The notes under the pieces: model-generated
The model's input: only the letters and a program-made list of their open reading frames with translations
Told to the model about the DNA's origin: nothing
The model's database searches: none
From: Candidatus Omnitrophota bacterium
GTDB taxonomy: Bacteria > Omnitrophota > Gorgyraeia > Gygaellales > Profunditerraquicolaceae
DNA length: 41,455 bases
Direction: 5' to 3'
NCBI GenBank assembly: GCA_028687205.1
Contig: JAQUAP010000003.1
Span: forward strand, 1 to 41,455
Part shown: piece by piece, positions 2,905-41,302 of the stretch
How positions within the stretch are numbered: the stretch's first letter is position 1
Layout of the letters: every line of letters starts with the position of its first letter
Program-made: the position numbers and the translations under genes

Positions 2905-4161
2905 TTTTATTTCCTTTGGGTGCGTAATCCTGCCGGTAATCGCCGAAGCCGCGGCTACCGCGGGATTAGACAAATAGACAAAGCTCTTGACACTGCCCAT
3001 TCTTCCGATAAAATTCCTGTTGGTAGTAGCTAAGGCAACCTCTCCTTCGGTCAGGATACCCATATGCCCGCCTAAACAGGGGCCGCAGGTAGGCGTAGAA
3101 AATATTCCGCCTGCCTTAACGAATATTTCCGCCAGCCCCTCTTTTACCGCTGCTAAATAAATCTTCTGCGTCGCCGGGATGACGATTAATTTTAATCCGT
3201 ACTTGATTTTTTTGCCTTTAAGGATTTTTGCGCTCGCCCGTAAATCCGAAATCCTGCCGTTAGTGCAGGAACCGATAACCACCTGGTCTAATTTAACGTC
3301 TTTTAAGCTGCTCACCGGCTTAACATTGCTCGGTAAGTGCGGACAGGCTACCTGCGGCTCTAAGTCCGTTACATCCCATTCATAAATCTTATCATATTTA
3401 GCGTCACTGTCGGATTTATAGAATTTAGGCTTACGCTTAAATTTAGAAACATATTCTTTGGTCGTGGCATCCGGCTCAATTATGCCTGCGCGCGCCCCGG
3501 CCTCAATCGCCATATTGCTCATGGAAAACCTGTCATCCATGCTTAAAGAGCGGATTACCGGCCCGGAAAATTCCATCGCTTTATATAAAGCTCCGTCTAC
3601 TCCGATCTTACCGATGGTAAAAAGAATCAGGTCTTTACCGCCAACCCATTTCTTAAGCTTTCCTTGATAAATAAATTTAACCGAACCCGGGACTTTAAAC
3701 CAGCATTTTCCGTCAATAAAGGCGCGGGCTAAATCTGTCGAGCCTACGCCCGTTGAATACGCGCCTAACGCGCCGTAGGTGCAGGTATGTGAATCCGCGC
3801 CGATCACCAGGTCCCCCGGTAAAACCAGGCCCAACTCGGGCAAAAGCGCATGCTCAATACCCATGCAGCCGACTTCAAAATAATTCTTTATTTTCTGCTC
3901 TCGCGCAAAATCGCTTAAGATCTTGCACTGGTTGGCGCTTCTTAAATCTTTTGCCGGAGCAAAGTGGTCAGGGACAAGGACGATCTTATTCCTGTCAAAG
4001 ACCTGCCTTGTCCCGCTCTTTTTGAATTGCTCGATAGCAAAAGGCGCGGTAATATCATTGCCTAAAGCAAGGTCAATATCCGCCTCGATAAACTCGCCCG
4101 GCCGGATAGCTTTCTTGTCAGTATGCGCCAATAATATTTTTTCTGCGATAGTATAACCCAT
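2902..4161 (-). CDS. leuC: 3-isopropylmalate dehydratase large subunit
   Basis: GADSHTCTYGALGAYSTGVGSTD, VIGSCTNGRISDL, CGPCLGGHMGIL Fe-S ligands. Confidence 0.93.
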   Translation of the reverse strand: MGYTIAEKILLAHTDKKAIRPGEFIEADIDLALGNDITAPFAIEQFKKSGTRQVFDRNKIVLVPDHFAPAKDLRSANQCKILSDFAREQKIKNYFEVGCMGIEHALLPELGLVLPGDLVIGADSHTCTYGALGAYSTGVGSTDLARAFIDGKCWFKVPGSVKFIYQGKLKKWVGGKDLILFTIGKIGVDGALYKAMEFSGPVIRSLSMDDRFSMSNMAIEAGARAGIIEPDATTKEYVSKFKRKPKFYKSDSDAKYDKIYEWDVTDLEPQVACPHLPSNVKPVSSLKDVKLDQVVIGSCTNGRISDLRASAKILKGKKIKYGLKLIVIPATQKIYLAAVKEGLAEIFVKAGGIFSTPTCGPCLGGHMGILTEGEVALATTNRNFIGRMGSVKSFVYLSNPAVAAASAITGRITHPKEIK

Positions 4162-40306: not shown

Positions 40307-40651
40307 TTAATCCTTGATATCCAGATGGAATTTATGAAGCAATCTATGCAATATCGGGGTAGCGATAATCGCTAGAATGGCGAAGAAGATAAAGGTGCTG
40401 AGGATAGAATAAATTCCAGTAAATAGCTTGCCAAAGGCGGTATTGATGCTGCTCACTGTACCCACTCCAGTCATAATCATCACTGAATTAAGGTAAGCGT
40501 CGATCCAAGAAAGTTTCTCCGCGAAATGAAAGACAATAGTTCCGAACAAAATGGTAGCTACAAGTAAGAGCAGAGAAATAATAACATTGCGCGCCAGGCG
40601 CAGGAAGAATTTCTCTTTCGGTAATAAGGGTTGGCGATAATGTTCAAGCAT
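40307..40651 (-). CDS. two-TM ion-channel-like (pore domain) protein
   Basis: TM-pore-TM pattern; pore-like MIMTGVGTVSSINTAFGKLF without the canonical GYG. Confidence 0.65.
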   Translation of the reverse strand: MLEHYRQPLLPKEKFFLRLARNVIISLLLLVATILFGTIVFHFAEKLSWIDAYLNSVMIMTGVGTVSSINTAFGKLFTGIYSILSTFIFFAILAIIATPILHRLLHKFHLDIKD

Positions 40652-40685
40652 AGATTTATTCTACCCCTCTCAATAAGCTTGTCAA

Positions 40686-40752
40686 CAAAAAAGGCGCTGA
40701 TTTCTCAAGCGCCTTTTCCTCGTAGCACAAATGTTCCTCTCCAACTAAGATT
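40686..40752 (-). ncRNA. putative about 67-nt promoter-to-terminator small RNA or attenuated leader, antisense to the 5' half of the adjacent tRNA-like RNA
   Basis: AATCTTAGTTGGAGAGGAACATTTGTGCTACGAGGAAAAGGCGCTTGAGAAATCAGCGCCTTTTTT; promoter at 40759-40787. Confidence 0.55.
40687..40717 (-). terminator. intrinsic terminator/attenuator upstream of the pore-protein gene
   Basis: AAAAGGCGCT/AGCGCCTTTT with T6 on minus strand. Confidence 0.85.
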
Positions 40753-40758
40753 AATTGA

Positions 40759-40787
40759 AGTATACCTCTTATAATGTCTATTGTCAA
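40759..40787 (-). promoter_or_regulatory. strong sigma70-like promoter TTGACA-N17-TATACT
   Basis: TTGACA 40787-40782, TATACT 40764-40759, 17-bp spacer. Confidence 0.8.
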
Positions 40788-40841
40788 GGTTTACTATGAG
40801 CGCGGTTAGCTTCTCCGGCCTAACCACGCCCTTTTCGATAC

Positions 40842-40915
40842 CCCCTTGGTGAGACTTGGACTCACATCGCCTTCTTAGTTGGAGAAGTGCATTATCCATT
40901 TATGCTACAAGGGGG
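40842..40915 (-). tRNA. tRNA-like cloverleaf with non-canonical anticodon loop (CCAACTA) and T-loop (TCCAAGT); nominal anticodon AAC, possible pseudo-tRNA or tRNA mimic
   Basis: Minus strand: CCCCTTG-TA-GCAT-AAATGGATA-ATGC-A-CTTCT-CCAACTA-AGAAG-GCGAT-GTGAG-TCCAAGT-CTCAC-CAAGGGG; all stems perfect, tRNA-standard lengths. Confidence 0.65.
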
Positions 40916-40979
40916 TACGATTGAAGGTTCTCCCTTCTGGCTTAATAGACGCAGAAGGAGACGGAATCTAACAAACAAG

Positions 40980-41000
40980 GGAGCACCGACCTACTCTCAC
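40980..41000 (-). repeat. 21-bp direct duplicate of the 5S rRNA 3' end
   Basis: GGAGCACCGACCTACTCTCAC identical to 41188-41208. Confidence 0.9.
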
Positions 41001-41142
41001 TCGTTAGGAGGGGGCAAGCCCCCTCCTAACGCTGTAAGCTTATTATATGGAAACGCTGTTCTCCCCCAGACGTGGGGGAAATCTTCCCCCACACCCCTTT
41101 CGTGAGAGTAGGCCAAACGGCCTTAAATTTCGCCCATAAATA

Positions 41143-41182: not shown

Positions 41183-41187
41183 TTTAA

Positions 41188-41302
41188 GGAGCACCGACCT
41201 ACTCTCACATGTCCTTACGAACACACTACCATCGGCCCTGAGGGGCTTAACTGCCGTATTCGGAATGGGAACGGGTGTTTCCCCCTCGGTAAAGGCACTC
41301 CA
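41188..41302 (-). rRNA. rrf: 5S ribosomal RNA
   Basis: CCCGTTCCCATTCCGAATACGGCAGTTAAG...CCGATGGTAGTGTG...GTGAGAGTAGG; terminal helix GGAGTGCC/GGTGCTCC. Confidence 0.93.

Follow-up and report, generated by a model that had tools for sequence, protein, structure and literature searches.

A tRNA-like RNA with a co-varying antisense partner in Omnitrophota: an apparent RNA-only switch or toxin-antitoxin-like module

Related systems

Antisense control involving a cloverleaf-like RNA is known from RNA I/RNA II of ColE1. The locus described here combines a tRNA-like RNA (T), a hairpin 3' of it (H) and a small antisense RNA (S). It differs from ColE1 in having no replication origin or primer, and T folds as a true tRNA, its D and T arms being canonical at most loci. 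The T-box riboswitch is similar in its specific pairing with an anticodon loop, as H and S each offer an anticodon complement. However, T-H-S displays no leader-gene linkage, antiterminator or NCCA contact, and the partner is a dedicated tRNA mimic. Rfam returned no T-box match in the window (the whole 41,455-nt stretch of DNA that was analysed), and the pore gene downstream of S has its own promoter.

Two classes of toxin-antitoxin system bear comparison. In tisB/istR-1, the effector is under a stress promoter while the antisense RNA is not induced (PMC4147584). As predicted from its sequence, T-H-S resembles this arrangement of a stress-regulated effector and an adjacent antisense RNA with its own promoter. 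In tisB/istR-1 and similar SOS-regulated type I loci of E. coli, however, the arrangement is divergent and a membrane peptide serves as effector, whereas T is non-coding, tRNA-shaped and in tandem with S. Type I toxin mRNAs encode small hydrophobic peptides; T is conserved as a structure and not as an ORF, with no mini-ORF kept. In CreTA, a rare tRNA is sequestered by CreT, a mini-ORF RNA, and CreA acts via Cascade (PMC8501985). Both systems would join an RNA effector touching the tRNA pool to an RNA antitoxin. They differ in that the T-H-S effector is itself tRNA-like and its partner appears to pair with it directly. As in type VIII systems, both partners are RNA, with direct pairing suggested by covariation. 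CreTA is defined by a CRISPR-repeat-like antitoxin beside cas genes and by a mini-ORF toxin, whereas the flanks of T-H-S that were examined hold no conserved protein neighbours and T keeps no mini-ORF.

The tRNAOther of B. cereus is a pseudo-tRNA outside translation that acts in T-box control of trpS1 (PMC3399842). Like it, T is tRNA-shaped and has an anticodon, and it may act outside translation. An antisense partner, an anticodon-covering hairpin and a co-varying family do not appear in the available part of that report. T-H-S is filed under none of these classes because toxicity is a proposal and the other classes' defining features are lacking. Neither the literature searched nor Rfam was found to describe a tRNA-like RNA with an antisense RNA dedicated to it, which is not proof of absence.

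Organisation of the locus

The window corresponds to contig C32 of a 1.2 Mb Omnitrophota genome that is 89% complete. On its minus strand the order is 5S rRNA, T, H, S promoter, S, terminator and ion-channel gene (Table 1). All elements that an earlier note had claimed for positions 40686-40915 were found there, including the near-consensus S promoter, the perfect 13-nt complement between the start of S and the T anticodon arm, the second pairing block, and the terminator about 35 nt ahead of the pore ORF. The note had missed H, the upstream box, the ion-channel gene promoter and three further copies of S in the genome.

Table 1. Features of the T-H-S locus and its surroundings in the window
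Feature	Position	Strand	Basis or remark
5S rRNA (context)	41186..41302	-	Rfam RF00001
Promoter-like box GTTAGATT-N13-CGTCTATT	40944..40972	-	25 nt upstream of T+H model match
T, tRNA-like RNA	40841..40912	-	ARAGORN, fold, 28-locus alignment
H, 12-bp hairpin 3' of T	40798..40831	-	Helix 5 of alignment
S promoter, sigma70-type, TTGACA-N17-TATACT	40759..40787	-	11/12 matches
S, putative antisense small RNA, ~67 nt with terminator	40686..40752	-	Sequence
S block 1, TCUUAGUUGGAGA	40740..40752	-	Pairs T anticodon arm 40873-40885, 13/13
S block 2, CAUUUGUGCUACGAGG	40718..40733	-	Pairs 40897-40912 over 16 nt
S Rho-independent terminator, GC hairpin + T6	40686..40716	-	Sequence and fold
Ion-channel gene promoter, TTGACA-N16-TAGAAT	40658..40685	-	Separate from S promoter
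Ion_trans_2 ORF, potassium-channel-like	40307..40651	-	Pfam PF07885

An exact 13-nt complement between stretches of 70 and 76 nt is expected by chance at ~1e-4 by arithmetic. Block 2 meets the acceptor 5' strand and D arm of T with 14 Watson-Crick and two G.U pairs. Blocks 1 and 2 are exactly the contacts in the predicted T:S complex, which is favoured over the separate RNAs by 18 kcal/mol. The Ion_trans_2 ORF is a neighbour outside the T-H-S system. T sits 3' of 5S rRNA in the window and in several relatives; in the window, the 3' end of 5S rRNA is repeated in degenerate form in the interval between the two (40990-41115), which also holds two strong GC hairpins.

Homologous loci in three families

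Omnitrophota MAGs were the source of five homologous loci found by pattern, and a DNA search of 59 relatives added five more T loci, all accompanied by S. In the window's family, 109 genomes were scanned with one covariance model for T with H (R1) and another for S (R2). Ten T-H loci were clear of the background, with rough E-values of <1e-24 against 4e-15 or weaker for the next matches, and S lay nearby on the same strand at all ten. The weaker R1 matches that were inspected were ordinary tRNA-Arg, for which reason the T body is taken to be of the tRNA-Arg type. Many model matches were rejected as ordinary tRNA-Arg, and a match in IMG/VR was an ordinary phage tRNA.

A scan of 392 genomes of the phylum, with follow-up scans, gave T-H matches in two more families, f27 and f32. 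In sequence they mostly have little in common with the window's family, while the layout of T, H, promoter, S and terminator is identical. This brings the complete T-H-S loci to 41 in three Omnitrophota families, of which 28 were used for learning rules and 13 were held out. Scans of more than 40 genomes were filtered strictly, so prevalence is a lower bound; the survey is a sample of Omnitrophota genomes, and marginal matches in other families (E ~1e-14) were inspected in part. By inspection, 15 of 34 genomes in the family of genome G350 carry a true locus, and some genomes carry two or three T loci. G350 itself has three complete loci and a further T locus (L168) without recognisable S or intact H, perhaps a decaying copy.

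The surroundings of these loci differ. Genes downstream of S vary by locus and are often on the opposite strand, and no conserved protein neighbours were found in the flanks examined. Three loci (L126, L132 and L143) share a pantothenate kinase-to-uvrB neighbourhood, with gene names read from sequence, and appear to lie at one ancestral place; L129 and L137 share another neighbourhood. Within both sets the anticodon arms differ, and each S fits its own T. One locus, L170, has the same layout on a different tRNA body.

The tRNA-like RNA and its hairpin

The window T forms a cloverleaf without encoded CCA, with the anticodon loop CCAACUA (anticodon AAC, C33, U37) and the T-loop UCCAAGU. ARAGORN calls it tRNA-Val(AAC) at 40915-40840, and such a call, with a cloverleaf and tRNA arms, was obtained at nearly all loci. 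The window T falls below the Rfam gathering score and has no Rfam listing; four homologues are listed there as tRNA at 46-54 bits. In the 28-locus alignment of T and H, which is model-fitted and thus leans toward the structure, 96.9% of pair cells are paired. Changes on both sides were seen in 31/36 pairs of T and H together, and slid controls collapse.

C33 or a pyrimidine at position 37 is unexpected in a decoding tRNA. Across the 41 loci, position 33 is U at 22 and C at 19, and position 37 is U at 20, G at 20 and A at one, breaking the elongator rule of U33 with purine 37. C36 is invariant (41/41) and A35 is present at 36/41. The anticodon is mostly RAC in a loop that would be ill-suited to normal decoding, and this composition suggests a tRNA-shaped RNA that may act outside translation. 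The window T may be decaying, as its T-loop carries C55, which is absent from the closest homologue (homologues have UUCGAAU or similar); its pairing with S is predicted to be intact. Two candidate hallmarks were dropped: ordinary tRNA-Arg controls often carry extra acceptor-stem pairs, and most control tRNA-Arg genes also have no encoded CCA.

The H loop, GCCGGAGAAG, matches the 5' strand of the T anticodon arm. In the 28-locus alignment, all 12 pairs of the H helix show both-side changes. The T:H contact is short (6-8 nt) and weak at some loci, with loop complementarity of 8.68 for cognate against 7.52 for non-cognate combinations (0/10,000 permutations).

The antisense RNA and its pairing with T

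A promoter with at least 9/12 matches precedes S at 38/41 loci, compared with 11% of shuffles, and a terminator-like hairpin with a T-run follows it at 41/41. The anticodon-complementary block lies 4-17 nt past the -10 box at all 41 loci, so S would start with the part that meets the anticodon, a position as for a 5' toehold. Block 2 pairs with the acceptor 5' strand and D arm, at times through the D loop; its acceptor part is weak at six loci. S carries a single terminator, no alternative antiterminator pairing was seen in it, and it is best read as a stand-alone RNA. A leader peptide was considered for S, as a start-like GGAGAGG-N7-RTG-CTA-CGA occurs in the window's family only, and was rejected because the frame is not kept and the resemblance is gone in other families.

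Pairing was scored as the best complementarity, out of 12, between the 12-nt anticodon arm and loop and the downstream region. Over the 28 loci the cognate mean was 10.95, against 8.43 for non-cognate combinations and 7.83 for shuffled sequence (0/10,000 permutations). The 13 hold-out loci gave 10.42 against 8.03 (0/100,000 permutations), while twelve ordinary tRNA-Arg control loci scored 7.92. Specificity extends to paralogues: in eight genomes with two or three loci, cognate pairs scored 10.6 and non-cognate pairs 8.0. Co-folding gave binding energies of -14.7 kcal/mol for cognate and -2.1 kcal/mol for non-cognate pairs. RNAduplex over the whole downstream region separated the two poorly, whereas 12-nt window scoring and co-folding did separate them.

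Mismatches inside the T:S helices comprise 23 G.U, five A.C and ten others (p = 4.6e-4 for G.U vs A.C), an excess inflated by shared ancestry; with a single count for each site that is shared in the window's family, it is estimated at ~15:5. With helix ends included the count is 35 vs 32 and uninformative. The direction of the bias fits pairing of RNA rather than DNA. Compensatory changes occur at two or three places of the module, and this covariation argues for direct RNA-RNA pairing of T and S. The earlier note had proposed a trans-acting antisense RNA against a tRNA-like RNA, and this is strongly supported by pairing that appears to be kept through sequence change at 41 loci. It had also suggested looking in related genomes for compensatory changes, which were found in T-H-S loci, and for divergence without preserved pairing, which was looked for and not found in the complete loci.

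Alternative explanations

The simplest null explanation in the earlier note was a functionless inverted partial duplication of a decaying tRNA gene. S does resemble an inverted part of T, and the window T-loop is damaged. This reading is refuted because the pairing is conserved across diverged loci, and we give it next to no weight. T, S and H co-vary across unrelated sequences, including the same neighbourhood in different genera; duplication leaves unexplained the compensatory changes, the G.U excess and the cognate specificity between paralogues, as well as the promoter and terminator at nearly all loci and the preserved layout of L170. An inverted repeat acting at the DNA level, for example as an attachment or recombination site, is very improbable. 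The transcribed strand shows a bias to G.U among interior mismatches, the two blocks are spaced differently in T and S, and S is framed by promoters and a terminator with no recombinase associated; the orphan S copies that adjoin ORF6N and other mobile-type genes (see below) are the observation in its favour. The note's other suggestion made S the terminated leader of the pore gene, with T controlling read-through in a T-box-like manner. The short distance from terminator to ORF would suit such an attenuator, but the promoter of the pore gene sits between the S terminator and the start codon, and the variable downstream genes and single terminator of S also speak against it. We regard attenuation as extremely unlikely.

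A more substantial alternative, although we think it improbable on balance, takes T for a tRNA mimic with a regulatory, non-toxic role, whose targets might for instance be T-box leaders, aminoacyl-tRNA synthetases or competence mRNAs, with S as a threshold-setting sponge. A35 and C36 are identity bases for ValRS. Their retention in T at most loci fits such a role, as does the tolerance of several T loci per genome. The tRNAOther of B. cereus also offers a precedent for a pseudo-tRNA in T-box control (PMC3399842). However, the anticodon-arm sequence varies freely provided that S co-varies, and a conserved base-pairing target of T is therefore unlikely. The frequent C33 and U37 and the lack of an Rfam T-box match in the window also count against this explanation.

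Control elements shared with competence genes

A 29-bp box, GTTAGRTT-N13-CGTCTATT, lies 24-34 nt before T at 9/10 loci of the window's family. The window's genome contains ten exact copies and none of the reversed control pattern. Most of the nine further copies are followed by a start codon after ~18-27 nt, and the genes include two for ORF6N proteins and those for an HHH_3 (ComEA-like) protein, a DNA methylase and a 23S_rRNA_IVP protein. The box is probably read by an alternative sigma factor. The ten transcription units behind it in the window's genome (L011-L020) include, with the ORF6N, ComEA-like and DNA methylase genes, those for an S23-type protein, a zf-HC2-like protein and a BNR-repeat protein. 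The core-site-like GTTAGAT had been considered as an integron attC or attachment site; this was rejected, as it is part of a 29-bp box with fixed spacing and a fixed distance to start codons.

In f27 and f32 a palindrome, TTGA-N7-TCAA, is found upstream of T at 22/31 loci, compared with 0.5% of shuffles; its distance to T is mostly 20-28 nt. A stricter operator, TTGAY-N5-RTCAA, has 28 sites in four genomes and none for the control. The operator TTGAYNWATNRTCAA is common to dprA, comF, spoVG/ssb, HigBA-like pairs and T loci (L180-L207; G350, G231, G424 and G229). Beyond T, three of its sites stand before shikimate kinase-dprA and three before spoVG, where ssb comes next in one case; others precede a ComF-like gene and HigBA-like pairs. 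From these motif positions, on which the assignment rests, the genes form a candidate Omnitrophota competence regulon. An XRE-cupin protein encoded beside spoVG (L184, L201 and L207) is a candidate regulator. The two lineages thus seem to place T under different switches, both of which would also serve competence or DNA-processing genes.

A proposed RNA-only module

T-H-S appears to be an RNA-only switch or toxin-antitoxin-like module of a kind for which we found no earlier description. Comparison between loci shows the fold of T, the complementarity of cognate T and S and of cognate T and H, the promoters with the terminator, and the common control elements. From these we infer that S is constitutive and unfolds T, that H serves as a lid and that T acts on translation. 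That the locus is an RNA-only regulatory module, in which an inducible tRNA mimic is neutralised by a constitutive antisense RNA, we consider an even chance. The narrower reading, which we consider somewhat less likely, is a new RNA-only toxin-antitoxin-like class whose tRNA mimic is deployed with natural competence, unfolded by the antisense RNA and masked in cis by a codon-imitating hairpin.

In this proposal, T would be transcribed from a regulated promoter common to competence or DNA-processing genes and toxin-antitoxin-like genes, and S separately, from a sigma70 promoter that lies directly 3' of T and seems to be constitutive. As a toehold, the 5' end of S would land on the T anticodon loop, open the anticodon stem and then zip along the acceptor 5' strand and D arm, destroying the cloverleaf. 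On the T transcript, H may act in cis as a cover for the anticodon arm and be lost on 3' processing. Upon induction of the regulon, T would exceed S and act as a temporary brake or toxin. Its action is most likely on translation, as a tRNA mimic, although this is a guess. A toxin would be expected to carry a cost, yet some genomes keep three T loci.

Its link with competence genes suggests that, in this mostly uncultured phylum, DNA uptake goes together with a brake at the level of translation or with a selfish element. The compensatory changes among the 41 natural variants make pairing, orthogonality and function directly testable, and orthogonal T/S pairs may serve as RNA switches.

Orphan copies of S

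S also occurs without an adjacent T: in the window's genome, contig C61 has three such copies, and nine further genomes have others. Some of these orphans lie directly 3' of ORF6N or other coding sequences. Four loci (L085, L086, L095 and L096) hold decayed S-like elements that keep the terminator, some having no recognisable promoter. The C61 copies (L005) lie near ORF6N genes at about 2850-2920, 3980-4030 and 4100-4145. In two of them the first block fits known T poorly, as if aimed at another T, missing from the assembly.
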